Source: Bacteroidales bacterium (lineage in GTDB: Bacteria; Bacteroidota; Bacteroidia; Bacteroidales; UBA10428). Taken from it: 33,001 nt of DNA. The notes beneath the pieces were generated by a model, which saw nothing but the letters and a program-made list of their open reading frames with translations, did no database searches and had not been told where the DNA came from. The position numbers and the translations under genes are program-made. Below, piece by piece: positions 6,394 through 32,334 of the stretch; within the stretch, counting starts at the first letter, position 1; every line of letters starts with the position of its first letter. Location: the NCBI GenBank assembly GCA_016935355.1, contig JAFGRC010000136.1, positions 1 to 33,001 on the forward strand, written 5' to 3'.

Positions 6394-6429
6394 AGTTATA
6401 CAGTATTAGTTTTTTTTCTTTAAATATGG

Positions 6430-6454
6430 GACGTTTAAGATGAAAAGAAGTTAC
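6430..6454 (-). promoter_or_regulatory. ECF-type promoter before the outer-membrane barrel gene
   Basis: Minus strand: GTAAC (6454-6450), 16 bases, then CGTC (6433-6430), ending 36 bases before the ATG at 6393. The -35-like element contains the TAA stop of the anti-sigma gene (6451-6453). Spacing and flanks (CTGTAACTT) equal those of the motif before the sigma gene at 8037-8061. Confidence 0.6.
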
Positions 6455-7524: not shown

Positions 7525-7529
7525 TTTTT

Positions 7530-8015
7530 CTATATTAATGCTTCTATACTTCCCAGGTAATTTTTCAGGAACATCCTTCCACGGAAAATGTAAACTTTGA
7601 CCTGGGATTCACTTAACCCTGTCAGTTCGGCTATTTCTTCATATGAATATCCTTCATAATCACGTAACAAAATGACTGATTTCTGATCAGCCGGTAAATG
7701 TGTGATTGCTTTATTCAGGACTTCCTGAATACCTGTATATTGAATTTGACACTCGGAAGCATCAATGTTGTGATCATCCAGGGAGGAAAATCTTTTTTCT
7801 TTACGCAATATGTCGATCATCGTATGATAAGCTGTGGTATAAAGATAGGATTTGACTTTTTCGTAATTGACAAAAGAAATTCGCATCCAAAGCTTCTCAT
7901 AGGTATCCTGAATAATGTCTTTGGCCTTATCCTCATTGCCCGTGTTTTTGAGAACAAAGCGGTACAGCCCGTCAGAAAAGTCATCGACGCTTTTATTGTA
8001 TTCAGCAATTGTCAT
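7530..8015 (-). CDS. ECF-type RNA polymerase sigma factor
   Basis: 161 residues, a usual length for group IV sigma factors. Region 2 contains DKAKDIIQDTYEKLWMR, the core-binding/-10 recognition helices. Region 4 contains LPADQKSVILLRDYEGYSYEEIAELTGLSESQVKVYIFRGR, with the helix-turn-helix that reads the -35 element. No region 1 or 3 is present. It is the first gene of a unit with the anti-sigma gene (5-base gap) and the outer-membrane barrel. An ECF-like motif GTAAC-N16-CGTC lies 22 bases before the start codon and recurs before the barrel gene, suggesting autoregulation. Confidence 0.93.
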   Translation of the reverse strand: MTIAEYNKSVDDFSDGLYRFVLKNTGNEDKAKDIIQDTYEKLWMRISFVNYEKVKSYLYTTAYHTMIDILRKEKRFSSLDDHNIDASECQIQYTGIQEVLNKAITHLPADQKSVILLRDYEGYSYEEIAELTGLSESQVKVYIFRGRMFLKNYLGSIEALI

Positions 8016-8036
8016 GAGAAGTACAATCAGATATAT

Positions 8037-8061
8037 GACGAACGATACGGGTTAAAGTTAC
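8037..8061 (-). promoter_or_regulatory. ECF-type autoregulatory promoter of the sigma gene
   Basis: Minus strand: GTAAC (8061-8057), 16 bases, then CGTC (8040-8037), 21 bases between motif end and ATG at 8015. An AAC-containing -35 and a CGT-containing -10 at this spacing are usual for ECF promoters. The same motif with the same spacing precedes the third gene of the unit. Confidence 0.6.
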
Positions 8062-8107
8062 AGTGAATAAAAAAAATCAGAAAACCTGATAAAAAAATTA
8101 AAAAAAA

Positions 8108-8139
8108 CTTGACATGATGATATTTTTGTTTTATATTTG
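8108..8139 (+). promoter_or_regulatory. Bacteroides-type promoter of the TetR/LolCDE-like operon
   Basis: CTTG at 8108-8111, 20 bases, then TATATTTG at 8132-8139 (perfect TAnnTTTG). The -7 box overlaps the first putative TetR operator by 2 bases, so a bound repressor would block RNA polymerase. Confidence 0.65.
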
Positions 8140-8155
8140 ACTAACCGTTCAGTCA
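8138..8155 (+). promoter_or_regulatory. Putative TetR operator 1
   Basis: An 18-base imperfect palindrome, TGACTAACCGTTCAGTCA (14 of 18 positions symmetric), with TGAC/GTCA outer arms typical of TetR-family operators. It begins inside the -7 box. Confidence 0.6.
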
Positions 8156-8201
8156 TTAATTACTAATGAAATATTAATTTGATATTCAAGTAATAATGGT
8201 A

Positions 8202-8219
8202 TGACCGGTCATTCAGTCA
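8202..8219 (+). promoter_or_regulatory. Putative TetR operator 2
   Basis: TGACCGGTCATTCAGTCA shares the 3' half TTCAGTCA and outer TGAC with operator 1. It contains the perfect 10-base palindrome TGACCGGTCA. It ends 20 bases before the TetR start codon, in the presumed 5' untranslated region, and starts 64 bases from operator 1. Confidence 0.55.
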
Positions 8220-8239
8220 ATATTAGAGACGTAAAATAA

Positions 8240-8824
8240 ATGGCACCGAGAACAGAATCTGAGTTCGAGAAGTTGAGGCTGGAACGAAAGAGCCAGATCA
8301 TGGAAACAGCCCTGGAATTATTTGCACGGGATGGATATCATCAAACTGCGGTCAGCAAAATTGCTGACCGGGCCGGAATATCCAAGGGACTCATGTACAA
8401 CTATTTTGCAAGCAAGGAAGAACTGCTTGATGCAATCATAACAAAGGGTATTGATCTGTTCCTGGAAAGTTTTGATCCGGATCAGGACGGGACCCTGACA
8501 AGTGAAGAATTTGATTATTTTGTGTATGGTTTATTCAACATACTGAGCAGGTATCAGAGATTTTTCAGGTTGTACATCTCGGTTTTATCGCAACCTGAGG
8601 CATTACAAATCATTAAAACCAAGTTTGAAGAGTTCTATGAATTTTATTTGCAATTGCTGACACAATATTTTGCCAGGATCGGATCAAAAAATCCGGAAGC
8701 CGAAGCCAGACTTTTTGCGGCTATGGTGGATGGCATTATGTTTCATTTTTTATTTTTAAAGGACTATCCTCTGGATGAGGTCAAAAAGATCATAATAAAC
8801 AGGTTTAAAGCCGGTATATCATGA
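8240..8824 (+). CDS. TetR/AcrR-family transcriptional regulator
   Basis: 194 residues. The N-terminal DNA-binding domain covers about residues 15-62, with helix-turn-helix TAVSKIADRAGISKGLMYNYF followed by SKEELL, the diagnostic TetR pattern. The C-terminal helical ligand-binding domain (about 65-194) is variable, as in all members; its phenylalanine-rich character would suit a hydrophobic ligand, but this is inference. It is the first gene of a plus-strand operon. Its TGA overlaps the ATG of the LolA-like gene (ATGA at 8821-8824), so the regulator is translationally coupled to the system it controls. Two operator-like palindromes upstream suggest autorepression. Confidence 0.93.
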   Translation: MAPRTESEFEKLRLERKSQIMETALELFARDGYHQTAVSKIADRAGISKGLMYNYFASKEELLDAIITKGIDLFLESFDPDQDGTLTSEEFDYFVYGLFNILSRYQRFFRLYISVLSQPEALQIIKTKFEEFYEFYLQLLTQYFARIGSKNPEAEARLFAAMVDGIMFHFLFLKDYPLDEVKKIIINRFKAGIS

Positions 8825-15609: not shown

Positions 15610-16509
15610 TCACTGTACACTCAGGGCATCGGCTCCGCTGACAATCTCGGTTATTTCTTTGGTAATTGCAGCCTGACGGGCTTTGTTATAGCTTAATTCA
15701 AGTTCCTTTATGAGATCAGTTGCATTATCAGTTGCCTTATGCATGGCCGTCATACGTGCACCGTGCTCTGAGGCGTAGGATTCCAGAAGTGTTCTGAAGA
15801 TCTGAAGCTTCAGGAAATACGGGATCATGACGTCATAGATCTCTTTTATGGATGGTTCCAGTATATAGTCGGTATATGTTTCGTATTTGCTTTCCGGCAG
15901 GTCAGCCAGTTCTTTTTCATAAACGACCGGAAGGAAACGTTCCTCTGTTATTTCCTGAACCGCTGCATTGCGGAACTGGTTATATATGATCTTGATTTCT
16001 CCGTATTTGGCCGATAGAAAACTGTTGATGATCTTTTCAGCAAGTTCGGAAACCGGATCAAACTTCAGATTGTCAAATATGTGATTATAGTTTTCAATAA
16101 CCGGATATTTTTTCGATCTGAAATAATCAGTACTTTTTTTCCCGATGCTGATAATGTCTAGCTTTCCATTCTTATATTCTTCAGAATAATTATTTTTTAT
16201 ACACTGAATGGTCCTTTTTATGATATTGGCATTAAATGCACCACAGAGCCCCCTGTTGGAAGTAAGAACGATCAGCAGTACCCTGCCGGATTCGTTCGGG
16301 ATCTCATAAATGCTTTTATAACTGTTATCCAGCTGTGATCCGACATGTTGCATAATTTCATCTAACTTAATGAAATAAGGGCGCAACCGGGTAATGCCAT
16401 CCTGAGCCTTTCTTAATTTTGCAGCAGAAACCATCTTCATGGCGTTGGTAATTTGCCGGATTGATCTGACTGAGTTAAGACGGATCCTTATTTCTTTCAG
16501 GTTTGCCAT
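15610..16509 (-). CDS. atpG: ATP synthase subunit gamma
   Basis: 299 residues. This is the central rotor stalk of F1, coupling c-ring rotation to catalysis in the alpha/beta hexamer. The N-terminal coiled-coil start MANLKEIRIRLNSVRSIRQITNAMKMVSAAKLRKAQ and C-terminal helix SEHGARMTAMHKATDNATDLIKELELSYNKARQAAITKEITEI are the highly conserved gamma signatures. A charged insertion after LTSNRGLCGAFNANI is modest in size. It follows atpA by 34 bases. The next minus-strand gene begins at its stop codon. Confidence 0.98.
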   Translation of the reverse strand: MANLKEIRIRLNSVRSIRQITNAMKMVSAAKLRKAQDGITRLRPYFIKLDEIMQHVGSQLDNSYKSIYEIPNESGRVLLIVLTSNRGLCGAFNANIIKRTIQCIKNNYSEEYKNGKLDIISIGKKSTDYFRSKKYPVIENYNHIFDNLKFDPVSELAEKIINSFLSAKYGEIKIIYNQFRNAAVQEITEERFLPVVYEKELADLPESKYETYTDYILEPSIKEIYDVMIPYFLKLQIFRTLLESYASEHGARMTAMHKATDNATDLIKELELSYNKARQAAITKEITEIVSGADALSVQ

Positions 16510-16543
16510 AATTTACAACGCATGGTAAAACATCATGTTCATA

Positions 16544-18124
16544 TTATTTCATTCTGTCTATGATCTCCTCTGCAATTTCAGTAAGCTGCTTTTCAATTAA
16601 TTCGGTTAGTTTACCTTCTTTCAGGTCCTTGAGGATATCTTTATGCTTCAACTCAATAAGATCCAGAAATTCTTTTTCAAATTCCTTGACTTTTTCAACT
16701 GGCAGATCAGAAAGTAAACCCCGGGTGCCACAAAAAATAATAGCAATTTGTTTTTCCACGGATAAAGGGGAATGCAGCGGTTGTTTCAATATTTCGACAT
16801 TTTTAGCACCTTTATCAAGTACGGCGAGCGTTGCAGCATCCAGATCAGAACCAAATTTTGCAAAAGCCTCAAGTTCACGGTATTGTGCCTGATCGAGTTT
16901 CAGTGTTCCTGCAATTTTTTTCATTGATTTGATTTGAGCATTGCCACCCACCCTGGATACTGAGATACCGACATTGATGGCGGGTCTCACACCTGCATTA
17001 AATAAATTGGTTTCAAGAAAGATCTGTCCGTCGGTGATCGAAATTACATTTGTAGGTATGTAAGCCGACACGTCACCTGCCTGTGTTTCAATAATCGGCA
17101 ATGCTGTCAGTGAACCTCCTCCCTTAACTTCTGCTTTTATCGTATCCGGAAGATCATTCATCTGTGCAGCCACTTCATCATTGTCTATTATTCTGGAGGC
17201 TCGTTCCAGCAAGCGGGAATGCAGGTAGAACACATCGCCGGGATAAGCCTCACGGCCGGGAGGGCGGCGCAACAACAAGGAAACTTCGCGGTATGAAACT
17301 GCCTGTTTTGAAAGGTCATCATAAATGATCAGGGCAGGCCGGCCTGTGTCCCTGAAATATTCTCCTATTGCACAACCTGCAAAAGGCGCATAGAACTGTA
17401 ATGCGGCCGGGTCGGATGCAGTGGCAGAAAGAATTATCGTGTAAGGTAAAGCACCATATGCTTCCAGTGTTTTTGCCAGGTGCGCTATTGTGGATCCTTT
17501 CTGACCAATTGCCACGTAAATACAAAAAACGGGTTCGCCTTTGTCATAAAACTCTTTCTGGTTGATGATCGTGTCAATTGCTATTGAAGATTTGCCCGTT
17601 TGTCTGTCGCCAATGATTAGCTCACGCTGACCTCTTCCGATGGGGATCATGGCGTCAATGGCTTTTATTCCGGTCTGCAACGGTTCATTGACAGGACGTC
17701 GGAAAATTACTCCGGGAGCTTTCCTTTCAAAAGGCATCTCATAGGTTTTTCCAATTATAGGCCCTTTTCCATCTATCGGCTCCCCGAGTGTATTGATGAT
17801 ACGGCCGAGCATTCCCTCAGTGACAAGAATGGATGCAATACGGTTGGTACGCTTGACTGTATCACCTTCTTTCACCTTTTCGGATGATCCCAGCAATACC
17901 GCTCCGATATTGTCTTCTTCCAGGTTGAGCACGATGCCCCGGATACCACTTTCAAATTCTATCAACTCATTGGAGTAAACGTTGGACATACCATAAATCC
18001 TTGCAATCCCGTCACCTACCTGTAAGACGGTTCCAACTTCATCAATCTGTGGAGTTTTTGTATCTACGTCTTTTAATTGTTGTTTTAATATTTTTGAAAC
18101 TTCTGATGGTTTAAGTGCCGTCAT
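16544..18124 (-). CDS. atpA: ATP synthase subunit alpha
   Basis: 526 residues, a usual length. Non-catalytic nucleotide-binding subunit of F1. Walker [10 protein letters not shown] at 172-180, the [27 protein letters not shown] stretch, and [20 protein letters not shown] near the C-terminal domain are all conserved. The arginine finger lies in the ISVSRVGG segment. It sits in the order atpB-E-F-H-A-G, with 25 bases after atpH. Confidence 0.99.
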
Positions 18125-18149
18125 AAGAATATGTTTAAATTAGATTATA

Positions 18150-18695
18150 TCACGAATTGATTTCAATCAGTTCTTTTTTAATCAGCTTTAATTTACTTGC
18201 AATGCTGGCATCAATTTGCAGATCACCGACACGTAAAATATAACCGCCTATTATGTTTTTGTCAACCGTCTCCTGTAATTCTACAGAAGATTTGAATTTT
18301 TGCTCTATAAGCTGTGTAATTGACTTTCTGATTTTTTCATTGATAGAAGCTGCAGAAATAAATTCTGCAGATTGTATGTTCTGGTCAGTTTTTAACAGAT
18401 CAAGGAAATACCTGGCCATACCGGCTAAATATTCTTCCCTGCGGTTTTCGAGTACAAGACGGATAAAAGTAAATGTCAACTGACTAAAAATACTCTTAAA
18501 AGCTACCTCAAACAGCCTGATTTTCTCTTTTGTCCTTATTACAGGACTTTGTATCACATACTGTAATTCAGGTATTTCGCCAATACCCTGATAAAGAAAT
18601 TCAATGTCTTTTTTCAGAACATTCAGAGAATTGTCTTCTTTACCTGCGGTAAAAAGTGCCTTGGCATATCTGACAGAAATTTTGCTTTCGTTCAT
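18150..18695 (-). CDS. atpH: ATP synthase subunit delta
   Basis: 181 residues, usual for delta/OSCP. It holds the top of the alpha/beta hexamer to the peripheral stalk. Recognisable elements are the N-terminal ISVRYAKALFTAG, the middle LVLENRREEYLAGMARYFLDL, and the C-terminal ENIIGGYILRVGDLQIDASIASKLKLIKKEL-type motif (NIIGGYILRVGDLQID is seen). It is 19 bases after atpF and 25 bases before atpA. Confidence 0.96.
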   Translation of the reverse strand: MNESKISVRYAKALFTAGKEDNSLNVLKKDIEFLYQGIGEIPELQYVIQSPVIRTKEKIRLFEVAFKSIFSQLTFTFIRLVLENRREEYLAGMARYFLDLLKTDQNIQSAEFISAASINEKIRKSITQLIEQKFKSSVELQETVDKNIIGGYILRVGDLQIDASIASKLKLIKKELIEINS

Positions 18696-18714
18696 GATTG
18701 GGATGCGGCGTTAA

Positions 18715-19209
18715 TCAATTGAATTTCATTTCACTAAGCGATTTCTCTATCAATTTTTGCTGTTTGTCAGGATCCTTCAATTCCTGCATCAGAATTTTTT
18801 CTGAAATGGCGACAGATAATTCCGAGACCTGCTTTTTGATCTCATACAATGCAGCCGTCCGTTCATTGATAATTGCCTTTCTTGCTTCTTCAATCATCTT
18901 ATGCGTTTGTTTTTTAGCCAGTTCATTGGCTTCGCTCAGCACGGATTCTTTAAAATCACGTGCTTCCTGAATGATCTTATCGCTTTCATCTTTTGCCTGT
19001 GAAAGGATCTTTTCGCTTTCTGTTTGCAGTCGGGATACTTCGAGCCTTGCTTTTTCAGCATCCTTTATGGCTTCAGCTATCGAGGTGTCCCTTTCTTTTA
19101 AGGCATTTACAATTGGTTTCCATGCATATTTGGCAAGAATGAAAAATGCAATTGAAAAGCTAATGATCATCCAAAAAATTATTCCGATTTCAGGAATTAA
19201 TAAATCCAT
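18715..19209 (-). CDS. atpF: ATP synthase subunit b
   Basis: 164 residues. One N-terminal membrane segment (about 8-28, IGIIFWMIISFSIAFFILAKY), with the typical W-K-P-I-V start of the long charged helix, is followed by a coiled-coil of about 110 residues (ERDTSIAEAIKDAEKARLEV). It forms the peripheral stalk and binds delta at its C-terminus. Only one b gene is present, so a b homodimer is expected. It is separated from atpE by 78 bases that contain a strong hairpin. Confidence 0.97.
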   Translation of the reverse strand: MDLLIPEIGIIFWMIISFSIAFFILAKYAWKPIVNALKERDTSIAEAIKDAEKARLEVSRLQTESEKILSQAKDESDKIIQEARDFKESVLSEANELAKKQTHKMIEEARKAIINERTAALYEIKKQVSELSVAISEKILMQELKDPDKQQKLIEKSLSEMKFN

Positions 19210-19238
19210 ATGTATTCTGTATTAAGCTTGGCAATAAA

Positions 19239-19271
19239 ACCGGGAGTCCGGACCAACCGTCCGGTCCCGGT
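19239..19271 (-). terminator. GC-rich hairpin between atpE and atpF (attenuator or mRNA stabiliser)
   Basis: Plus-strand arms are ACCGGGA (19239-19245) and CCGGAC (19248-19253), pairing with GTCCGG (19259-19264) and TCCCGGT (19265-19271). This makes a 13-base-pair stem with a 2-base bulge and a 5-base loop. On the minus strand it is followed by TTTTATTG, a short T-rich run. It is far more GC-rich than its surroundings. Because atpF-H-A-G downstream must still be expressed, a partial terminator or an RNase barrier is more likely than a full stop. Confidence 0.7.
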
Positions 19272-19287
19272 AAAACAAATATCAACC

Positions 19288-19542
19288 TCAGGCTGTAACA
19301 ACAGCAAGCAGGCTGACAATTACAGCAAACAGGGAAATACCTTCGATCAGTGCTGCAGATACAATCATGCTGGTCCGGATATCACCGGCTGCTTCTGGTT
19401 GACGAGCAGTAGCCTCCATGGCATTTCCGCCGATTTTACCAATGCCGTAAGCTGCTCCAATAGTTACTATAGCACCGCCAATAGCTCCGCCCAGTTTTGC
19501 CAGAGCAGCTCCGCTTGCAATCTGTAAGATAATAGATAACAT
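19288..19542 (-). CDS. atpE: ATP synthase subunit c
   Basis: 84 residues, two membrane helices joined by the polar loop ARQPEA (46-51). The ion-carrying carboxylate is Glu67 in AALIEGISLFA. The position that is Gln in sodium-type c subunits (Gln32 of Ilyobacter) is Ile34 here, and the residue after the glutamate is Gly68 rather than Ser. The ring is therefore expected to be proton-coupled. It is preceded by a very AT-rich leader (31 bases between atpB and atpE), which could favour strong translation. A strong hairpin follows. Confidence 0.98.
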   Translation of the reverse strand: MLSIILQIASGAALAKLGGAIGGAIVTIGAAYGIGKIGGNAMEATARQPEAAGDIRTSMIVSAALIEGISLFAVIVSLLAVVTA

Positions 19543-19573
19543 AGTATATATATATTAATTAATAAAAAAGCCG

Positions 19574-20695
19574 TCAATCATGTCCATGATTGTGTTCTTC
19601 GACTGCCATCCCGATATATAGGGCAGACAAAAAAGTAAATACATATGCCTGAATGAAAGCAACAAGCAATTCCACAAAGACCATGAAAACATTAAAAAGT
19701 ACTGAAATAACGGAAATCCCATATGCCATGGAAGAAGACATCTTGGCAAAAATGAAAATAATGCTGAAAAATCCCAATGCAATGATGTGACCTGCGGATA
19801 TGTTAGCAAACAATCGGACCATCAGGACAAAAGGTTTTGTGAATATTCCGATTGCTTCCAAAATCGGCATTATAGGAAGGGGAAGCTTAAGCCAGAATGG
19901 TACACCGGGAGTATTGAAAATGTGGGTCCAGTAATTACGGTTGCCGCTGAAATTCGTAACAAACAATGTGAACGCAGCAAGTACAAAAGTAACTGCAATA
20001 TTACCGGTCAGATTGGCTCCTGCAGGTGGAATGGGAATCAATCCGAGCAGGTTGTTGATCAGGATAAAAAAGAACACAGTTAACAAATACGGTAAAAAGC
20101 GTTCATATTTTGGCCCTATGGAAGATTTTGCAATATCATCACGAACAAATAAAACCACGGGTTCTATTAATGACTGTATACCTTTTGGCTTGCTAACGGG
20201 ATTCTTCTTGTAAATCCTTGCTGCTGAAATAAAAATTAAAAACAACAGGATCATGCTGAAAAACATGGCTGCCACATTTTTGGTGATGGACAGATCCAGG
20301 GGCATTGTTCCGTCTTCATCTGTGATTTTGCCTTTATTCTCACCGCTTGTTTCAAGCCGGAAACCTCTGTATGTTGCATGTCCATGTTCAAACCTGCCCG
20401 ACATGAAGACATTCAATCCTTTTGTTTTGCTGTAAAGGATAACGGGTAAAGGTATGCTGACGGGTTTATGATTTATTTCTGTGATATGCCATTCATGAGA
20501 ATCCTTGATATGATCAAATATGAAATCTCCCGGATCGAATTCCTCTTCACCCTGTTCTTCCGGGTTATGTCCGGCAGTTTGATCCCCTGCCACCTGCTCT
20601 GTATGATCTTCCTCAGTGTTTGCAAATAATTCAAAATTCACCAACAGGAAAAACCCGAAAAAGATCACAACAATCCTGTACGTCCACCTATACAT
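19574..20695 (-). CDS. atpB: ATP synthase subunit a
   Basis: About 373 residues from the ATG at 20695; a TTG at 20704 would add three residues. It is much longer than the E. coli protein (271) because of an N-terminal extension. The extension has a signal-peptide-like segment (residues 6-25) and an acidic/His-rich stretch ending in DSHEWHI, as is usual in Bacteroidota. The proton half-channel region is intact, with the essential Arg at about residue 294 in VRLFANISAGH and the conserved INNLLGLIP helix. The last residues are HNHGHD. Confidence 0.96.
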   Translation of the reverse strand: MYRWTYRIVVIFFGFFLLVNFELFANTEEDHTEQVAGDQTAGHNPEEQGEEEFDPGDFIFDHIKDSHEWHITEINHKPVSIPLPVILYSKTKGLNVFMSGRFEHGHATYRGFRLETSGENKGKITDEDGTMPLDLSITKNVAAMFFSMILLFLIFISAARIYKKNPVSKPKGIQSLIEPVVLFVRDDIAKSSIGPKYERFLPYLLTVFFFILINNLLGLIPIPPAGANLTGNIAVTFVLAAFTLFVTNFSGNRNYWTHIFNTPGVPFWLKLPLPIMPILEAIGIFTKPFVLMVRLFANISAGHIIALGFFSIIFIFAKMSSSMAYGISVISVLFNVFMVFVELLVAFIQAYVFTFLSALYIGMAVEEHNHGHD

Positions 20696-20728
20696 ATCTT
20701 TCAAATTAGGGTGCGTAAATATAAAAAA

Positions 20729-21148
20729 CTAATTTGACATATGATTTGGCAATGTATTTTTTTCTTTTTTTCTTCTCAGCAGTTTCAACGTGACATAAAG
20801 ATCGTATGCGGTATAAATAATATACAATACAAGCAACGTGACTGAAAAGGGAATTGCATGTTGCGGGGTGGTCAGAATATAGGCCAAAACGAGAAAAAAA
20901 TAGAATATGGTTTTTATTCCTGAGGCACCCATAAAGTTGCGGATAAACTGTGTATTTGTCTTTTTCATTGAGTGAAAAAAGAAGATGAAAAAGGCAGCGT
21001 TAACAATCATGAAAATAAGCACCAGGTAAGGGAACATACTAAAGTAGTAGGGATCAAGTATTGTGTTAAACAGGAGTACACCCAGGCCTAAGATGATGAC
21101 AGTAATTGCTGTCAATCCAATCAGGATTTTTTTAAGCTTATGGTTCAT
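20729..21148 (-). CDS. Four-helix membrane protein in the AtpI position
   Basis: 139 residues with four hydrophobic segments (about 7-28, 36-58, 78-98, 103-122) and a basic C-terminal tail (KLLRRKKEK). It lies between the AtpZ gene (51-base gap) and atpB (about 33 bases), the place usually held by AtpI. AtpI/UncI is thought to help c-ring assembly. Sequence similarity to AtpI is not evident by eye, so it is called by position and topology only. Confidence 0.6.
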   Translation of the reverse strand: MNHKLKKILIGLTAITVIILGLGVLLFNTILDPYYFSMFPYLVLIFMIVNAAFFIFFFHSMKKTNTQFIRNFMGASGIKTIFYFFLVLAYILTTPQHAIPFSVTLLVLYIIYTAYDLYVTLKLLRRKKEKNTLPNHMSN

Positions 21149-21199
21149 GTGTTCAATTCTTGTGGATGATATTTACAGGTTATGTCCCGGTTTGGCAGT

Positions 21200-21442
21200 T
21201 CATGGTTTGTTTTTGTGCAGCAAATCCTTGACAGCATAATAAAGCGCAAGCACCATTGCGAGAAAAGAAAAAAGAATTGTAAAAAGAGGGAATTCCAGTT
21301 TAACCAGTTTATCAAGTTTTATCCCGCCAAATACGCCCAGTAAAAGAATAAACAGCATTTGAAATGCCAAACTGGAATAACGGGCATAATCAACCAGGTT
21401 ATTTGATATTTTCTTTTGGTTTTTCTGGTTCTTTTGTTGCAT
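21200..21442 (-). CDS. AtpZ/AtpI-family protein
   Basis: About 80 residues with two membrane helices (about 27-45 and 53-72), separated by GGIKLDKLVKLEFPLFT. The short-loop hairpin and the YARYSSLAFQM start of helix 1 are typical of the AtpZ/putative F0F1-ATPase subunit family. The chosen start is ATG at 21442; a GTG at 21463 is also open. Either way the N-terminal coding overlaps the last codons of the bactofilin gene (44 bases from ATG, 65 from GTG), an unusually long overlap for functional genes. The N-terminus is Gln/Lys/Asn-rich (QQKNQKNQKK). Confidence 0.82.
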   Translation of the reverse strand: MQQKNQKNQKKISNNLVDYARYSSLAFQMLFILLLGVFGGIKLDKLVKLEFPLFTILFSFLAMVLALYYAVKDLLHKNKP

Positions 21443-21797
21443 TGCCGGAATTGGTTTCAGCACTCATATTGCAATTACCCGTAAATTTTGCCCCGGGTTC
21501 AATAGCAAGCCTCCTGGTTATAATATCTCCTTTTACACTTGATGTTGATTTTAATGTCAGCAGTTCTGACACAACGATTTTACCGTCAATGCTACCTTCT
21601 ATTACTGAATTCTTGCAATTTACCTCTCCTTTAACGGAACCGGTTTCACCAACGACAACCTTGCCTTTTGTCATCAGATTGCCCACTAAACCACCCTCAA
21701 ACCGAATATCACCATTAGTGGTAATATCTCCCTTAATTGTTGTTCCTACGCCAATCTGATTGATAACATTGCTTTCGGTTTCAATTATTTTCGCCAT
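21399..21797 (-). CDS. Bactofilin (polymer-forming cytoskeletal protein)
   Basis: 132 residues. The central right-handed beta-helix is visible as repeated G-x-I/V turns: GVGTTIKGDITTNGDIRFEG, KGKVVVGETGSVKGEV, EGSIDGKIVVSELLTLKSTSSVKGDI and IEPGAKFTGNCNM. Short disordered tails flank it (C-terminal KEPEKPKENIK). Bactofilins form filaments without nucleotides and place cell-wall or envelope machinery. It is the first gene of the atp unit, with a -7 box 43 bases ahead, and its 3' end overlaps AtpZ. Confidence 0.93.
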   Translation of the reverse strand: MAKIIETESNVINQIGVGTTIKGDITTNGDIRFEGGLVGNLMTKGKVVVGETGSVKGEVNCKNSVIEGSIDGKIVVSELLTLKSTSSVKGDIITRRLAIEPGAKFTGNCNMSAETNSGNATKEPEKPKENIK

Positions 21798-21839
21798 TTG
21801 CGCTAAGTTTTAAAAATTGAACGGATTCTTGAATGCAAA

Positions 21840-21847
21840 CAAATATA
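21840..21847 (-). promoter_or_regulatory. -7 box of the bactofilin-atp operon promoter
   Basis: Minus strand TATATTTG, a perfect TAnnTTTG, ending 43 bases before the bactofilin ATG. A TTG lies 16 bases upstream of it, shorter than the usual 19-21, so the -33 element is uncertain. This is probably the main promoter of the gene run down to 14162. Confidence 0.5.
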
Positions 21848-21954
21848 AGCATAACATAATTTTCAACATGCTTATGTGTAATAATATTTTTTCACGGTAT
21901 CAGAAATTCTGCGATACATAATTTTCAGGTTATAACGTCTTGCCGGTCCATTTA

Positions 21955-22950
21955 TTATGACTGCAGGGCCCATTTTACATAAATAGCACCCCATGTAAAC
22001 CCGGCACCAAAAGATGTTAATATCAGATTATCACCAGGATTAAGCTGATTTTCATACTCCCAAAGACAAAGAGGTATTGTGGCAGCCGTTGTGTTTCCAT
22101 ATCTTTCGATATTGATCATAACCTGTTCCCGCTTAATTCCCATGCGCCTCGCTGTCGCTTCGATGATTCGCAAATTTGCCTGATGGGGGACCAGGTATTT
22201 GATATCGTCGTGACCAAGATCGTTCCTTTTCATGATTTCAAGGGAAACATCTGCCATTTTGGAAACGGCAAATTTGAAGACTGCTTGTCCTTCCTGATAT
22301 ACGTAATGCAATCCCGATTCAATGGTATCATGGGTGGCAGGCATCAGGGAACCTCCCGCAGCCATGTGGAGGTTTTTTGCGCCTGAACCATCCACTGAAA
22401 GTATTGCATCTATAATACCATAACCATTGTCGGCGGGTTCAAGCAAAACGGCTCCTGCTCCATCACCAAAGAGGGCGCAGGTTGTCCTGTCAGCATAATT
22501 GGTAATGGCAGACATTTTATCCGCTCCGACAACAATGATCTTTTTATAGCCGCCTGATTCAATAAAACGCCGGCCTGTTTCAAGAGCAAACAAAAATCCG
22601 GAACAGGCAGCGCTCAGATCATAACTGAAAGCATTTTTTAATCCGGTTTTATCACAAATGATATTTGCAGTCGCTGGAAAGTGCATATCCGGAGTAATGG
22701 TTGCACAAATCAGAAATTCAATATCTTCAGGAGGTGTTTTGGTCTTTTTCAGCAGATTACCGATAGCCTTTACAGCCATATATGAGGTGGCCTTGTTCCT
22801 GTCCTTAAGTATTCTTCTTTCTTTAATACCGACCCGTTGCATGATCCACTCATCGCTGGTGTCAACCATTTTGCTCAGCTCGAAATTATCCAGAATGGCA
22901 TCAGGAACATATGCCCCGATTCCGGTAATAGCTGCTCTTCTTTTTATCAT
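21955..22950 (-). CDS. fabH: 3-oxoacyl-ACP synthase III (KAS III)
   Basis: 331 residues, standard length. It starts fatty acid synthesis by condensing acetyl-CoA (or branched acyl-CoA) with malonyl-ACP. The catalytic triad is intact: Cys116 in SAACSGF, His256 in VPHQANLRI and Asn286 in YGNTTAA. GAGFTWGA near the C-terminus is also conserved. The start overlaps the plsX stop by one base (TAATG), so the two are translationally coupled. This is the last gene of the yceD-rpmF-plsX-fabH unit. Bacteroidota often have more than one fabH; this plsX-linked copy is likely the housekeeping one. Confidence 0.97.
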   Translation of the reverse strand: MIKRRAAITGIGAYVPDAILDNFELSKMVDTSDEWIMQRVGIKERRILKDRNKATSYMAVKAIGNLLKKTKTPPEDIEFLICATITPDMHFPATANIICDKTGLKNAFSYDLSAACSGFLFALETGRRFIESGGYKKIIVVGADKMSAITNYADRTTCALFGDGAGAVLLEPADNGYGIIDAILSVDGSGAKNLHMAAGGSLMPATHDTIESGLHYVYQEGQAVFKFAVSKMADVSLEIMKRNDLGHDDIKYLVPHQANLRIIEATARRMGIKREQVMINIERYGNTTAATIPLCLWEYENQLNPGDNLILTSFGAGFTWGAIYVKWALQS

Positions 22951-23888
22951 TATGTAAAAGCTTCTTTAATATTATCACATATATTTCCACTGATAACATC
23001 GACAGTATGCAGGATCAGGTTTTTTACGGTCACATCGTTGGAGATTCCGTGACCAATAACCACCGGTGCATTTATACCAAGTATCGGTGTGCCTCCGTAG
23101 TTTTCAAAATTAAATTTTTCAAAGAACGCATCATTGATGTTGCGTTTCCTGATCATGGCATAAAAAGCTTCGGCCTGCTTTACCATTACATTTCCAACAA
23201 AACCATCACATACCATGACATCTGCCTTGTCACTGAAAAGGTCATTTCCTTCCAGATTACCAATGAAATTAAAGTCCCTGGATTCTTTCATGACCTGAAA
23301 AGAAGCTTTTGTCAGTAAATTTCCCTTCTCTTCTTCAGAACCGATATTTAACAGGCCAACACGAGGTTGAGGTATATTTAAAACATGCCGGGCATAAATA
23401 TTACCGAGAATGGCATATTGATATAATACGTCCGGTCTGCAATCGGGATTAATACCTACATCCAGAACCAGCATGGGATGTTGATCCGGTCTCGGGAATG
23501 AGGCTGTGATACAGGGACGGATAATTCCGGGAACAACTTTTATTACCCGTGTTGCTCCAACCATCATGGCACCGGTATTCCCGACACTGGCAAAGCCATC
23601 AATTTTTCCTCCGGCCAGAAGTTTGAAACCGAGGACTATACTGGAATTTGATTTAACAGAAAACGCCCTTGCCGGATAATCTCCCATTTCAATGAGCTCA
23701 GTCGTGTGTACGATTTCGAAAACAGAACTGTCAAAGTTTTCCCTTTCACAAATAGAAGTTATGATGCTTTCATCGCCGATCAATACAAGCTGTATATCCG
23801 CTGAAATACTTTTTGAGGCTAAAATTGATCCAAGCACTGTTGACTCAGGTGCGAAATCTCCACCAAAAATATCAATACCGATTCTCAT
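22950..23888 (-). CDS. plsX: Phosphate acyltransferase PlsX
   Basis: 312 residues. It makes acyl-phosphate from acyl-ACP, the donor for PlsY in phospholipid synthesis; it is a peripheral membrane enzyme. The N-terminal RIGIDIFGGDFAPESTVLGSI is the family start (usually DxMGGD; here DIFGGD). DGFASVGNTGAMM, LLNIGSEEEKGN and VCDGFVGNVMVK are the other conserved blocks. It is about 37 bases after rpmF and overlaps fabH by one base. Confidence 0.97.
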   Translation of the reverse strand: MRIGIDIFGGDFAPESTVLGSILASKSISADIQLVLIGDESIITSICERENFDSSVFEIVHTTELIEMGDYPARAFSVKSNSSIVLGFKLLAGGKIDGFASVGNTGAMMVGATRVIKVVPGIIRPCITASFPRPDQHPMLVLDVGINPDCRPDVLYQYAILGNIYARHVLNIPQPRVGLLNIGSEEEKGNLLTKASFQVMKESRDFNFIGNLEGNDLFSDKADVMVCDGFVGNVMVKQAEAFYAMIRKRNINDAFFEKFNFENYGGTPILGINAPVVIGHGISNDVTVKNLILHTVDVISGNICDNIKEAFT

Positions 23889-23925
23889 GACCAGTTTGAA
23901 TGATTTAGATTTTCAGGGGTATTGT

Positions 23926-24111
23926 TCAGGATGAAACCTCTTTTTCAATAGCAGGCTTGCCTTTGTAATGGCCACATTCGGGACAGATCCTGTGGTATTG
24001 AACTGCTGAACCACAATTCTGACAAACACTCAGTGTAGGTATTTCAGCCTTGTAATGTGTTCTCCTTTTGTCTCTTCTTTGTTTTGAATGCTTACGTTTC
24101 GGATTAGGCAT
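23926..24111 (-). CDS. rpmF: 50S ribosomal protein L32
   Basis: 61 residues. It begins MPNPKRKHSKQRRDKRRTHYK, the invariant L32 start. Two zinc-binding CxxC pairs are present (Cys30/Cys33 and Cys43/Cys46), so this is the zinc-containing C+ form. It is placed between yceD and plsX, as in many bacteria, linking ribosome and membrane lipid synthesis. Confidence 0.98.
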   Translation of the reverse strand: MPNPKRKHSKQRRDKRRTHYKAEIPTLSVCQNCGSAVQYHRICPECGHYKGKPAIEKEVSS

Positions 24112-24262
24112 AATGTATCAATTATATATTTTTAATTATCATCTGTCAATTTGGTAAGTGTATTGTGTAATGCGCATTGTAAATAGAATTTATTAAAGTT
24201 AAAACCCGGTTTATTTTTAATTGTCAGTCTTCCAGGTTCAAAAGAAGCTCCAGCTCTTATGA

Positions 24263-24736
24263 TTATTCACTGATCAGGTGTTTCATCAGCAATTTTAGCA
24301 TTTCCGGATCACATCCTGATCTGCCATCCGGCATGTCAGGGTGAACTTTCCTCAGGGGAACTGAAAGGCTGATGCATTCATACAGGTAATGTTTCAGGTC
24401 GAGTTGGTTATCTTCAGGATGAAGAATCATGACCTCTTCATAAGATTCTTGTTGCTTTTCGTTGAATTTGACCATTAAGTGACCTGTAAAAGCAATTGGC
24501 AGGTCGAAATAAGTCAGGCAACGGTCACATTGTACCTGAATGTTACCCGAAAGATCAACATCAAGTTCCATGAAGTTGTTCTCCTTATTCAGCTTAACCT
24601 GTACCCCAACATTTCCATCAAAAATATCCAGGTTCATATACTCTTCAAAGAACGGCTTTTCGATTTTGTATTCAAAATCATGAATACCTTCTTTCAGCCC
24701 TTTGAAATAAATTATATATTGATTCTTGAATTTCAA
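24263..24736 (-). CDS. YceD/DUF177-family protein
   Basis: 157 residues. The CDRCL motif in VQCDRCLTYFDLPI and the later acidic EEVMILHPEDNQLDLKHYLYECISLSVPLRKVHP stretch are the DUF177 (YceD) signature. The family is almost always found just upstream of rpmF and has been linked to 23S rRNA accumulation. No ATG lies at the expected place. The frame begins with TTG at 24736 (MKFKNQYIIYFKGL), and the promoter about 23 bases upstream leaves little room for a longer start. Confidence 0.87.
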   Translation of the reverse strand: MKFKNQYIIYFKGLKEGIHDFEYKIEKPFFEEYMNLDIFDGNVGVQVKLNKENNFMELDVDLSGNIQVQCDRCLTYFDLPIAFTGHLMVKFNEKQQESYEEVMILHPEDNQLDLKHYLYECISLSVPLRKVHPDMPDGRSGCDPEMLKLLMKHLISE

Positions 24737-24758
24737 AAAACTGATTGTTAAAGTCCGG

Positions 24759-24789
24759 CAAAAGTAAAAATAATATTCTGAATAACAAA
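24759..24789 (-). promoter_or_regulatory. Bacteroides-type promoter of yceD-rpmF-plsX-fabH
   Basis: Minus strand TTTG (24789-24786), 19 bases, TACTTTTG (24766-24759): both elements match the Bacteroides consensus perfectly. Transcription would start about 7 bases on, giving a leader of roughly 15 bases before the TTG start at 24736. This is the best promoter in the window. Confidence 0.75.
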
Positions 24790-24994
24790 GCTAATTTATG
24801 TTACAGAATGCAGATGTTCATGCAATAATTCATCCGCTGCCGGGATTAAATAATGATCGGTAAAATTTACAGCAAGCAGCTTTTAGCATGGCGTGCTGTT
24901 GAATCAAACGCTGCAAAATCCGGATTTCCCGGTATAATGACCTTGCATTTGGTGATTCGCAATGTCGTAGAAAATTGCGTGATAAGCTGTACTT

Positions 24995-25035
24995 AAAAAA
25001 AGATCATTTCAGTCAAGATTTTCCATGAAATGATC
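24995..25035 (-). terminator. Intrinsic terminator of the orphan receiver gene
   Basis: A perfect 10-base inverted repeat (25002-25011 and 25026-25035) with a 14-base loop is followed on the minus strand by seven Ts (25001-24995). The stop codon and the last few codons of the receiver gene lie within the hairpin. Confidence 0.85.
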
Positions 25036-25401
25036 ATCTATCGTTTCGATGAGGGTATCAATGAAAAAATCATCCTTTATGACATATTCTTTTGCGCCAA
25101 ACTGAATAAATTGATTGATAAGCCTTTTATCTTTTTCACGGCTTAAGATGATCACCGGCATCTTATTGTTTAATGAATGGATTTTCTTAAGAGTTTCAAG
25201 TCCTGACATAGCATTTGACTCACCCTCTCCAAGATAATAATCCAGAACAATGACATTGGGATTCAAATGCAGGTTCCTCATGCACTCCTCTCCTGAAAAA
25301 AAAGACTTAACCTCAAATCCTTCACGGCATTTAAAGGTGTATTCCATCAGATCCAACATCATCTTATCATCATCGACAAAAAATATGAGCTTATTTTTCA
25401 T
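25009..25401 (-). CDS. Single-domain response regulator (receiver only)
   Basis: 130 residues from the ATG at 25401; a TTG 15 bases upstream is in frame but less likely. It is a complete receiver domain with no output domain: acidic pocket Asp10/Asp11/Asp12, phosphoacceptor Asp54 in VIVLDYYLGEG, Ser87 in place of the switch Ser/Thr and Lys109 in YVIKDD. Such proteins act as phosphate shuttles or bind partner proteins. It is monocistronic, with its own promoter-like element and terminator. No kinase is adjacent. Confidence 0.9.
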   Translation of the reverse strand: MKNKLIFFVDDDKMMLDLMEYTFKCREGFEVKSFFSGEECMRNLHLNPNVIVLDYYLGEGESNAMSGLETLKKIHSLNNKMPVIILSREKDKRLINQFIQFGAKEYVIKDDFFIDTLIETIDDHFMENLD

Positions 25402-25453
25402 GCGTATGGAATTCAATTTTAAGTCTCATTTTCTGTTTTTACGTTCCTCCTGA

Positions 25454-25484
25454 CAAAAGTTGGATAAATGTTACGAACAAGCAA
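25454..25484 (-). promoter_or_regulatory. Candidate promoter of the orphan receiver gene
   Basis: Minus strand TTG (25484-25482), 20 bases, AACTTTTG (25461-25454), seven of eight matches by position to TAnnTTTG counting the free positions. A Shine-Dalgarno-like AGGAGG follows, but it is too far from the ATG at 25401 to fix that start. Confidence 0.45.
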
Positions 25485-25531
25485 TTTTTACTGATGAATA
25501 ATCGGTTCACAATGATGTTAACCAGGAGCTG

Positions 25532-25599
25532 AAAAAACAAATTATCCCCGGAAGTCTGGTTGCATATGATATGGAATCCTATCCAGCTTCCGGGGATAA
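25532..25599 (-). terminator. Intrinsic terminator of the small outer-membrane barrel gene
   Basis: A perfect 13-base inverted repeat (25542-25554 and 25587-25599) is extended inward by CTGG/CCAG after a one-base bulge. On the minus strand it is followed by TTTGTTTTTT (25541-25532). It lies 30 bases after the barrel gene stop. Confidence 0.88.
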
Positions 25600-25628
25600 A
25601 TCTTAAAAATACAACTTATCCTAAACCT

Positions 25629-26204
25629 TTAAAATTTCAACGAAGCTGCAAGGCTTAAATAGGCTATTCCATAGCCAAGTTCAGCCATCACACCAAAATT
25701 CGGAGTGAAATAATACCGGGCTCCTGCAAAAAGTGAATATGCAACCCCGCTGGAATTGGCTGTATAATTGTAACCATAATAATCACCAAATTCCTTTGAA
25801 GTAACAATTCTGGCCCCAAGTAAGACACCACCATACAAATCGAGATTATCCACAAGATCCACAAAATGGTAAGTGCCGCGCGGTCCAATAATAAATGTAG
25901 AGTATTTATATCCCCATGTTCCTCCTGAATATGTATATTCCCATTTATAAGCATTATAACCCATATAGCCTCCTACGCCGAGATTTCCGGGGCCCAGTGC
26001 TTCCCTCAGGCAATAATCCCCTGAAACAAAGACTGGTGGGAAAGATGTCTTATAGTACAATCCTGTATAGTACGTAGCACCAATACCAAGTCCAAGATTA
26101 AGAACAAAGTCACCCTTATCAAAAATTTGCGCTTTTGCGGGAGCAGCCGGAATAAACAAAGCCATTATCAATCCCAGCATGGTAATCATTAGAGCTTTTT
26201 TCAT
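25629..26204 (-). CDS. Small outer-membrane beta-barrel protein
   Basis: 191 residues with a signal peptide (cut after AKAQ, residue 26). The mature part is rich in Gly, Tyr and alternating beta-strands (GDFVLNLGLGIGATYY; YSLFAGARYYFTPNFGVMAELGYG) and ends in LKF, the outer-membrane assembly signal. It resembles OmpW/OprF-like 8-stranded barrels of Bacteroidota. Substrate and role are unknown. It is a single-gene unit divergent from atpD, with its own promoter and a strong terminator. Confidence 0.85.
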   Translation of the reverse strand: MKKALMITMLGLIMALFIPAAPAKAQIFDKGDFVLNLGLGIGATYYTGLYYKTSFPPVFVSGDYCLREALGPGNLGVGGYMGYNAYKWEYTYSGGTWGYKYSTFIIGPRGTYHFVDLVDNLDLYGGVLLGARIVTSKEFGDYYGYNYTANSSGVAYSLFAGARYYFTPNFGVMAELGYGIAYLSLAASLKF

Positions 26205-26229
26205 AAGATTTATAAATTTAGGTTATAAT

Positions 26230-26261
26230 AAAAAATATTTATTTAATTGTCATTTGACAAA
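26230..26261 (-). promoter_or_regulatory. Candidate promoter of the small outer-membrane barrel gene
   Basis: Minus strand TTTG (26261-26258), 20 bases, TATTTTTT (26237-26230), missing only the last G of TAnnTTTG. It is 25 bases before the ATG. A second -7-like TAACTTTG lies just upstream without a -33 partner. Confidence 0.45.
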
Positions 26262-26404
26262 GTTATAAAATGGACAAATTAGTATTATTTAAAAATACTT
26301 TTTTTTTACCAAAAAATGAAATCGATTGACAGTAATAATTAATGGATTGATTAAATACATTGAAAGAAGATCGTTGTGAAATGAAAAAATAATGATATAA
26401 ATGA

Positions 26405-26412
26405 TATATTTG
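26405..26412 (+). promoter_or_regulatory. -7 box of the atpDC promoter
   Basis: TATATTTG, a perfect TAnnTTTG, 28 bases before the atpD ATG. The region 19-21 bases upstream holds no TTTG; the nearest TTG is 28 bases away. So the -33 element is weak or absent. Confidence 0.5.
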
Positions 26413-26437
26413 TGACCGTTAATTTTTTAAAAGATAA

Positions 26438-27955
<1,518 letters not shown>

Positions 27956-27973
27956 ATGTAAAGCCTGCAGGAT

Positions 27974-28216
27974 ATGAATCTTGAGATTATGACACCGGAG
28001 ACGAGACTGTTTGAAGGTGAAGTTAAACTTGTACAGGTGCCTGGCATAAAGGGGTCCTTTGAAGTATTAAAGAACCATGCACCGATTATATCAACACTTT
28101 CAAAAGGGGCGATCAAGATTATTACCGAAAAAGATAAAAAGGAAACCATTCTGATCAGTTCCGGAATTATCGAAGTAAAGGCAAATCATATCACTATCCT
28201 CGCACTGGTGGGATAG
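27974..28216 (+). CDS. atpC: ATP synthase subunit epsilon, short form
   Basis: 80 residues, against about 135 in E. coli. The N-terminal beta-sandwich is complete (MNLEIMTPETRLFEGEV; VPGIKGSFEVLKNHAPIISTLSKGAIKI; ILISSGIIEVKANHITILA), but the C-terminal two-helix domain that can inhibit ATP hydrolysis is absent. Short epsilon subunits are known in Bacteroidota, so this is not a truncation by mutation. It follows atpD by 18 bases, and the next gene starts one base after its stop. Confidence 0.95.
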   Translation: MNLEIMTPETRLFEGEVKLVQVPGIKGSFEVLKNHAPIISTLSKGAIKIITEKDKKETILISSGIIEVKANHITILALVG

Positions 28217-29488: not shown

Positions 29489-30955
29489 ATGTTAAACTTT
29501 AGGATTTTATTCGGTTTTGTCCCGAAAACAGCCGATTATGAAGCCAGTCAATCATCATTGAGAAAAGAATATGAAGAGTTGAAGGCTTTTTTGCAATCCA
29601 GGGAATTAGAAGAATTCAGGGAGCGTGAAAAGGAAGTGACTTCACCGGAATTCGCGAAGCGAAAAAAAGCCATTTTGTCACGCAAATATTCAGATACTCC
29701 GGAATTTTCAAAAGAAAAGGAATATCTCAAGCTTAAAAAGAAAAAGGAAATCAACAGGTATTTCCGTATTCGTGATTCCGTGGAGCTGAAAGATTTTATA
29801 GAGTTTGACAAATCTTATGATGTAAAGCATTATCATACGCTGGAAAAACTTGTGCATTCGGAAGAATTCATCAGTCAGCAAAAAAGACTCGGGAAAAAGA
29901 AGTTTAAGGAAACGGAAGAATATCAGAAATATCTGGAATTTCAGGCTCTTAAGAAATCCGAACGTTTCCGGGATTATTTCAAGTTTAAGACATCAAAGGA
30001 TTATGTGAATTTCACCTTATTGATCGGATCTGAAAAGATTACGGCTTTTGAAAACCTGGAACGGTTTGTAAAATCTGAAGAATTCCTGAAAGTCAAAGAA
30101 TACATGCTATTGCCTCCCGGCAAAAAACTGGAATTGTCCGAAGAATATAAGCTGGAGAAACAATACCTTGAACTTAAAAAATCCGACAAGATCCAATGGT
30201 ATCTGAAAGTAAAGGACAGTCATAAATTTGATGAAATAAAACGCTGGCAACTGACATTTGATGAAGAATTTGATTCGGATAAACTCGACGGTAAAAGATG
30301 GCTGACGCGTTATTTCTGGGGGGAAGTGTTGTTGAATGACAGCTATTCCCTGGATCATGAAAAACAGTACATGAATCATGATAAAAACATAGAAATTGCC
30401 GGCAGCACATTAAAAATCATCACAAAACGTGAAAAAATAAAAGGGAAGGCATGGAATCCTGCCATAGGATTCTTTCCCCGGGATTTTGAATACACATCAG
30501 GACTGGTCAATTCGGGAAGCAGCTTCAGACAGCAATACGGATTGTATGAAGCCAAAATCAGGTTTAACAATAGTTATCCGGTACATCACGCTTGCTGGCT
30601 GGTTTCGGACATGCTGCTGCCGCACATCGATATTGCCAAAGCATCGAAAAAAATATCTATGGGGAACTTCTGGGGAAGTGTTGCAGGAAAAGGTAAAGTC
30701 AGTAAAAATGAAACAAGGGTAAGCCTTAGCCGGTATGGCTCAGATTTCTTCATATTCTCTCTGGAATGGAATGAAAATCAATTAACCTGGAAAATCAACG
30801 GGATAACCGTAAATACTGTCAGGGAAGGTATCCCCAAGGTACCCATGTTTATCAACATCAGTTCATCGTTGTATACGGATGTGAAAAACTCCATATTGCC
30901 GGCTCAGATGGAAGTTGACTGGATACGTTGTTATAAGCAGGTTCAGCCGGATTGA
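29489..30955 (+). CDS. GH16-fold protein with N-terminal 72-residue repeats; catalytic residues lost
   Basis: 488 residues without a signal peptide or membrane segment. Residues 23-255 are a charged helical region made of about 3.5 repeats. VTSPEF (50-55), VHSEEF (122-127) and VKSEEF (194-199) recur at an exact 72-residue period, as do LKKKKEINRYF (82-92) and LKKSERFRDYF (154-164); LKKSDKIQWYL starts at 229. Residues 254-488 form a GH16-like concanavalin-type domain (WQLTFDEEFDSDKLDGKRW start; YGLYEAKIRF; FFIFSLEWNENQLTWKINGI; PMFINISSS; MEVDWIRCYK end). The GH16 active-site motif ExDxxE reads HIDIAK at 379-384, so both catalytic glutamates are missing. It is probably a sugar-binding or structural protein. 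Its function and location are unknown. Confidence 0.75.
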   Translation: MLNFRILFGFVPKTADYEASQSSLRKEYEELKAFLQSRELEEFREREKEVTSPEFAKRKKAILSRKYSDTPEFSKEKEYLKLKKKKEINRYFRIRDSVELKDFIEFDKSYDVKHYHTLEKLVHSEEFISQQKRLGKKKFKETEEYQKYLEFQALKKSERFRDYFKFKTSKDYVNFTLLIGSEKITAFENLERFVKSEEFLKVKEYMLLPPGKKLELSEEYKLEKQYLELKKSDKIQWYLKVKDSHKFDEIKRWQLTFDEEFDSDKLDGKRWLTRYFWGEVLLNDSYSLDHEKQYMNHDKNIEIAGSTLKIITKREKIKGKAWNPAIGFFPRDFEYTSGLVNSGSSFRQQYGLYEAKIRFNNSYPVHHACWLVSDMLLPHIDIAKASKKISMGNFWGSVAGKGKVSKNETRVSLSRYGSDFFIFSLEWNENQLTWKINGITVNTVREGIPKVPMFINISSSLYTDVKNSILPAQMEVDWIRCYKQVQPD

Positions 30956-31332: not shown

Positions 31333-32334
31333 ATGGCGCAGAAATTATTAATAAGGCTTTTTTACTGTCTGGCGTGGACCCCCTTTATTTCATACAGTCA
31401 GGAATCTGTACCTGACCATGTCAGATATGAAGGCAGGTTATACCCTCTATATCCGGAAAGGATCACCGAGTTACCGGATATGCCTTCTCCATTATTAACA
31501 AATGATGGCAGGGAAGTCATCATTGGACATACAACGGATGATCAATATGTGCTTTTTGATGTCACTGTTGAAAATGGTGATGACTTGAGATATGATAGGG
31601 GAATGTACGGTAAAGGCAGGCAACTTGATGTTAATTCTTTAGATTTTCCGGATCTGGCAAATACCGGGCTCCATAATGAAGTAGCGCTGAAGCAGACAAA
31701 TAAGATAACAGGGTTACCAGTGCCAGAAATAACACAAACCGGCTGGCCTGAACAGTATTCCCAGGCAGGATTTATGGCTGAAGATGAAGACATCATATCA
31801 GTTTTGATCAATGACAATCAGCTGGTGAAAGAAATTGGACTAAAACACCCGGATCTCGCATCCCCCCTTTTTCATATCTGGAATATTGCTTTGGCCGGTA
31901 TTCAGCAGGGTATATTTTTTTTTGAAGCAATGCAGATTGATTATATATATTATAACGGTCATAAGGTATATATAAAATGGCAGGGCAGCAGGGGATGGCA
32001 GGAATCAATTTTCAATGACGAAATAATGGGACAGTTTCAGATCGAAGTATGGAGGGATATGGAAACGGTTGAAACCAATTTCCTGCAAACTTGCTACCCC
32101 GAACTCAATGATGAAGAAATGGCTGATATGATCAGGAAGCTTTCCTATATACATACGGGTGAAATGGTACCTTATTATATTGTGCGTTATGGGTTTTATG
32201 AAGGGCATACTGATTTCAGGGCGGACCCGATAGCCATTGCATCCATTTTCAGGTTGAGGGACCTGGAAGCAATTGAGACATGTTTAAACGGCAATTTATA
32301 CCTTAGGCTCAAAGAACATTATAACAGTAAATGA
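31333..32334 (+). CDS. Exported protein of unknown function
   Basis: 333 residues with a signal peptide (MAQKLLIRLFYCLAWTPFISYS, cut before QES). I do not recognise a family. The mature protein has an acidic N-terminal half with proline-rich segments (PLYPERITELPDMPSPLL). Around residues 195-235 it has a tyrosine-rich stretch with IYYNGHKVYIKWQGSRGW, and a helical C-terminal part (EMADMIRKLSYI; YYIVRYGFYEGHTDFRADPIAIASIFRL). There is no lipobox and no terminal barrel signal, so it is probably periplasmic or secreted. Its TGA overlaps the ATG of the next gene (ATGA), which implies joint expression and perhaps a shared role. Confidence 0.72.
   Translation: MAQKLLIRLFYCLAWTPFISYSQESVPDHVRYEGRLYPLYPERITELPDMPSPLLTNDGREVIIGHTTDDQYVLFDVTVENGDDLRYDRGMYGKGRQLDVNSLDFPDLANTGLHNEVALKQTNKITGLPVPEITQTGWPEQYSQAGFMAEDEDIISVLINDNQLVKEIGLKHPDLASPLFHIWNIALAGIQQGIFFFEAMQIDYIYYNGHKVYIKWQGSRGWQESIFNDEIMGQFQIEVWRDMETVETNFLQTCYPELNDEEMADMIRKLSYIHTGEMVPYYIVRYGFYEGHTDFRADPIAIASIFRLRDLEAIETCLNGNLYLRLKEHYNSK

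Follow-up and report, generated by a model that had tools for sequence, protein, structure and literature searches.

The closest described proteins to the one reported here are the laminarinases or endo-1,3-beta-glucanases of glycosyl hydrolase family 16 (GH16; structures 3azx, 4dfs and 4crq; Pfam PF00722), with which it has the beta-sandwich fold in common along the whole domain. Nearest to it on the GH16 tree are secreted GH16 proteins of other Bacteroidia that carry a WPPEIDIFE motif (L117, L118, L119 and L126). A parallel from further afield is provided by the beta-1,3-glucan recognition proteins (GNBPs) of insects, which serve in animal immunity, carry an N-terminal domain of another kind and are likened to our protein by description, not by alignment. 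They are GH16 proteins that lack the catalytic glutamates, serve in binding and have gained an N-terminal region; the same paper also mentions a GH16 protein that has no signal peptide (PMC6403176). They are an independent parallel, resembling our protein in kind and not in membership.

We analysed a stretch of 33,001 nucleotides from a Bacteroidales genome, referred to as the window. It contains a gene for a GH16-related protein, hereafter pseudo-GH16, with the following parts.

29489..30955, + strand: pseudo-GH16 gene with helical repeats, 488 aa, ATG start (ORF; Pfam PF00722; homologues)
29489..29527, + strand: residues 1-13, short hydrophobic, basic N-terminal segment preceding the first long helix (homologue N-termini; low AF2 confidence)
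29597..29812, + strand: repeat unit 1, residues 37-108 (72-residue period; z=7.1 against unit 2; AF2 helices)
29813..30028, + strand: repeat unit 2, residues 109-180 (period; helical model)
30029..30244, + strand: repeat unit 3, residues 181-252, which leads into the GH16 domain (period; helical model)
30245..30940, + strand: GH16 beta-sandwich domain, residues 253-484, catalytically degenerate (AF2; Foldseek)
30434..30478, + strand: family-specific insertion GKxW..xxGF, residues 316-330 (alignment; gapped in most active relatives)
30620..30640, + strand: P-HIDIAK, residues 378-384, where active enzymes have ExDxxE (alignment)

Unlike the laminarinases, pseudo-GH16 lacks both catalytic glutamates, the tryptophan that precedes them and a signal peptide, and has in addition the conserved GKxW..xxGF insertion and helical repeats in front of the domain. 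With the WPPEIDIFE-type proteins it shares the proline before the motif and the WG and F..Q positions, whereas these proteins have an intact EIDIFE, a hydrophobic, signal-like N-terminus and no repeats. No description of the pseudo-GH16 family was found in the titles and abstracts of the open-access literature searched. We give about even chances to the view that pseudo-GH16 is a catalytically dead, non-exported GH16 derivative acting as a cytoplasmic rod-and-head adaptor.

The GH16 domain and its former active site

The window protein scores well above the Pfam cut-off for PF00722 (E=1.1e-10; 41.7 bits, cut-off 22), which places it in the GH16 fold, and in a profile comparison with solved structures it matches the 3azx laminarinase (E=2.4e-19). 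The AF2 model has a mean pLDDT of 92.6, with mostly 90-97 in the GH16 domain, and a Foldseek search retrieved laminarinases (E=8.9e-18, about 1e-17) as well as carrageenases. HIDIAK (379-384) aligns with EIDIME of the T. maritima laminarinase 3azx, with the two glutamates changed and the central aspartate retained; the strand reads PHIDIAK in one and GEIDIME in the other. The first-pass annotation, which had proposed that HIDIAK replaces ExDxxE in a well-kept GH16 fold, was thus correct for the window protein, and the same is seen family-wide.

In 93 distinct homologues the motif takes the form P-[H/E/Q]-[I/V]-D-[I/V]-x-[K/R]. The proline before it is invariant (93/93), the nucleophile position is held by His in 62, Glu in 15, Gln in 15 and Met in one, and the aspartate between the former glutamates is present in 84, with Asn, Ser or Thr in some members. 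The acid/base position is Lys in 44 and Arg in 41 (85/93), and its single Glu occurs in a protein that has His at the nucleophile position. An intact ExDxxE pair was found in none of the 93, examined short forms included; homologues with intact glutamates, which would have told against the earlier annotation, are found only among secreted relatives outside the clade. In L022 and L197 the motif is weaker still (PMVSVVD and PMISLFHY), the former catalytic strand drifting.

Other positions are equally characteristic. The family-specific conserved residues are W277 (82/93), Y286, W322, G327-F328, R347-Q348, K356, N437 and W478; within the GKxW..xxGF insertion, which most active relatives lack, W322 and G327 are invariant and F328 is nearly so. 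The residue before the proline is Trp in all 31 aligned active relatives, and nearly every pseudo-GH16 protein has Thr, Leu, Val or Ile there. In Bacillus lichenase this tryptophan is the stacking residue of the -1 subsite. Because it has been lost and the acid/base position is now Lys or Arg, it is doubtful, judging from these residues, that the head retains the ancestral beta-glucan ligand, and a glycan is therefore no likelier a candidate than a protein partner or an anionic ligand.

These residues bear directly on the possibility that pseudo-GH16 is an intracellular lectin, anchored at the membrane by its rod and N-terminus, whose head would keep GH16-like recognition of a polysaccharide that is either intracellular or linked to lipid. 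The cleft strand with its central aspartate and the tryptophan of AFW (W370, 88/93) are retained, and the insect beta-glucan recognition proteins are GH16 proteins that lost catalysis (PMC6403176). However, the tryptophan before the motif is gone throughout the family, the nucleophile is His or Gln in most members (Glu in 15/93), the acid/base residue has become Lys or Arg, and no gene for glycan synthesis adjoins the pseudo-GH16 gene consistently; we consider this reading unlikely. The earlier proposal of selection for binding rather than hydrolysis can be kept in part: the catalytic residues are lost and the fold is under selection, but a glycan is one candidate ligand of the head among others.

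The helical repeats and the N-terminus

Serines 37, 109 and 181, spaced by exactly 72 residues, are invariant among 44 homologues, and a lag of 72 tops the BLOSUM autocorrelation of the window protein and is the best lag most often seen across the family. The three units are identical without gaps at 20, 14 and 14 of 72 positions (19-28%), and their pairs score above shuffled sequences with z = 7.1 (unit 1 against unit 2), 2.8 and 3.6, the scores being reached by 0, 91 and 4 of 20,000 shuffles. Given an identity of only 19-28%, the "exact" repeats of the first-pass annotation are exact in their period alone and not in sequence. At the DNA level, no tandem repeat was found. Each unit divides into segments of about 12-18 residues starting at Ser or Thr, which match the helices of the model, and residues 1-248 are modelled as entirely helical (AF2, pLDDT 93.5). 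We infer from the model that the array may form an extended rod.

A fold search with residues 1-248 gave a best PDB match at E=0.43 and a best viral match at E=1.2, so no known fold was recognised for the repeats. A PDB sequence search of the same region gave no match, and Pfam and NCBIfam gave just stray matches, in 1-2 of 44 members, in agreement with the earlier remark that no named domain covers these repeats. The shortest homologue ORF has 328 aa and the longest 907 aa, lengths that correspond to about one and nine units. The GH16 head accompanies the repeats in 43 of 46 ORFs, and the three exceptions stop at a contig or stretch end; fusion to another domain was not seen in the ORFs examined.

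The export signal was assessed by comparing hydropathy in 70 homologues whose start motif is clear, and by inspecting the N-termini of the remaining ones. Median peak N-terminal hydropathy was 1.22 in the 70 pseudo-GH16 proteins, 2.43 in active GH16 proteins and 2.97 in a neighbouring outer-membrane protein family, with overlap between the first two ranges (pseudo-GH16 up to 1.95, active GH16 from 1.41). Neither a Sec signal peptide nor a lipobox was detected in any homologue by the comparison and the inspection, which extends to the family the lack of a signal peptide first noted for the window protein. A Sec-type hydrophobic core is absent from this protein both from the annotated ATG and from the upstream open frame, and a signal peptide from a different start, which the earlier annotation had named as evidence that would count against it, is thus not gained by reading further upstream. 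A cytoplasmic location would follow from these missing signal features, which are its only ground.

What the homologues have instead of a signal is a segment mostly of 11-19 residues, hydrophobic and usually with one or two Lys/Arg; it is free of Asp and Glu in 77 of 78 homologues and contains Lys or Arg in 73 of 78. Its hydrophobic, acid-free character suggests that it may dock to a membrane or a partner. As an amphipathic helix it was rejected, its hydrophobic moment being no higher than in shuffled sequences.

Were pseudo-GH16 exported by a non-Sec route, it could act outside the cell, either as an adhesin on the surface or as a rod that binds polysaccharide, as might be expected from the secretion of its nearest active GH16 relatives and from a repeat number that varies as widely as in surface rods. 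Yet no homologue has a signal peptide, no secretion gene is constantly adjacent, the ORFs examined show no fusion to another domain and there is no positive evidence for non-classical secretion. We regard such export as quite improbable.

Distribution, origin and selection

Homologues are present in 25 of 60 close genomes, and at least 372 tblastn relatives were found among 84,980 species genomes (GTDB); in the genome-contig scan a single-protein query gave nothing and an alignment query was needed. In a class-wide sample of 296 genomes, full-length matches were confined to the same order, Bacteroidales, in which the repeat region occurs in 66 of 242 good genomes. The carriers are a group of marine and sediment Bacteroidales, as a rule with one gene per genome; those named among the matches listed are Marinifilum, Labilibaculum, Marinilabilia, Thermophagus, Anaerophaga and Perlabentimonas. 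The genome of the window also encodes an ordinary secreted GH16 protein with GEIDIME. One Chlorobiota record (L088) holds a protein resembling those of the Marinilabiliaceae L065 and L087, and is possibly a misassigned MAG. No pseudo-GH16 match was found in phage records. Matches on plasmids and viral contigs were set aside as weak (about 20-26% identity) and falling within the GH16 part or close to it; EIDVVE is kept in the three viral ones examined.

On the GH16 tree that includes the window protein, the pseudo-GH16 proteins form one clade (support 100/100), which was recovered with an SH-aLRT of 99 on a larger-set tree from which the window row and four others were absent. Its nearest outside relatives (L117, L118, L119 and L126) have intact WPPEIDIFE and hydrophobic, signal-like N-termini; their own grouping as a clade is unsure (71/18). 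As a single clade joined to active secreted GH16 proteins, pseudo-GH16 has its simplest history in one origin from a secreted GH16. It is shown or strongly supported that this clade lost both glutamates, the preceding tryptophan and the Sec signal, and gained N-terminal repeats of short helices capped by Ser or Thr.

For homologue pairs with usable dS, the median dN/dS is 0.076 in the repeats and 0.062 in the GH16 domain. Both halves are therefore kept, and pseudo-GH16 is under strong purifying selection and functional even though the usual catalytic residues are gone. One could ask whether this function is still enzymatic, with an altered chemistry built on the retained aspartate (84/93) and the new His, Lys or Arg (a basic residue at the acid/base position in 85/93). 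Residues that take part in catalysis should not vary, whereas the nucleophile position varies between His, Glu, Gln and Met (H62/E15/Q15/M1) and some members have Asn, Ser or Thr for the aspartate, making this reading very improbable. A decaying pseudogene or chance ORF, which the lost catalytic residues might suggest, is refuted by the dN/dS of about 0.06-0.08 in both halves over many pairs and by intact frames in many genera.

Proposed role and gene neighbourhood

Judged by its sequence features, pseudo-GH16 most likely has a binding or scaffolding task within the cell. In the adaptor model, a secreted GH16 ancestor would have lost catalysis and export once, gained the N-terminal rod of helical repeats and been kept long-term in the cytoplasm. 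The remodelled head, with its P-[HEQ]-[IV]-D-[IV]-x-[KR] cleft and GKxW..xxGF insertion, would bind a ligand or protein partner without hydrolysis; the repeat array would be a spacer setting distance, its length varying by lineage; and the hydrophobic, acid-free segment of about 11-19 residues would dock the protein to a membrane or partner. The fuller proposal, that a secreted glucanase gave rise to an undescribed Bacteroidales family of cytoplasmic scaffolds, with a rod of new repeats of lineage-specific length holding a rebuilt GH16 head, is offered tentatively, at somewhat less than even chances. If true, it would give a carbohydrate-enzyme fold a cell-biological and not a digestive role in bacteria; if the cytoplasmic role is right, this would be a clean, single-origin recruitment of an extracellular enzyme fold into the cell, together with a new repeat domain. 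Because members exceed the Pfam GH16 cut-off, automatic annotation is likely to name them family 16 glycosyl hydrolases, and a pseudo-GH16 protein so annotated would count as carbohydrate-degrading capacity in genome surveys. In the family to which the window belongs, PF00722 was scored in 22 of 23 genomes, a count that includes pseudo-GH16 proteins.

No constant neighbour of the gene was found among homologue loci, the neighbours differing by lineage. The candidates for a fixed partner (ECF sigma/anti-sigma, atpDC-GT9, SiaC and a histidine kinase) each occur in some lineages and none in all. The window order atpD-atpC-GT9-gene is common to L045 and L046, with one extra gene. At about 20 other loci the gene is immediately followed by a set of ECF sigma, anti-sigma and outer-membrane-protein genes, and homologues of that sigma and anti-sigma (51% and 30% identity) are located at window 6451-8015. 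They belong to a group of ECF sigma, anti-sigma-like and outer-membrane-protein genes (5518-8240) about 21 kb from pseudo-GH16, where the slot between the sigma gene and a divergent TetR gene (8016-8239) measures only 224 bases. A SiaC-like (PF09345) regulator gene is directly upstream of pseudo-GH16 in L099 (9562-9942, 23-base gap), L052, L055 and L069. SiaC was not adopted as partner: it occurs in 50 of 69 carriers and 53 of 178 non-carriers, a count confounded by phylogeny.

Directly downstream of pseudo-GH16, on the same strand, 31333-32334 encodes a 333-aa protein without a Pfam match and with a hydrophobic N-terminus. The ATP synthase genes of the window are split, with atpB to atpG on the minus strand (15610-20704) and atpD and atpC on the plus strand (26441-28216), and plsX and fabH are among the genes between the two parts (within 15610-28216).
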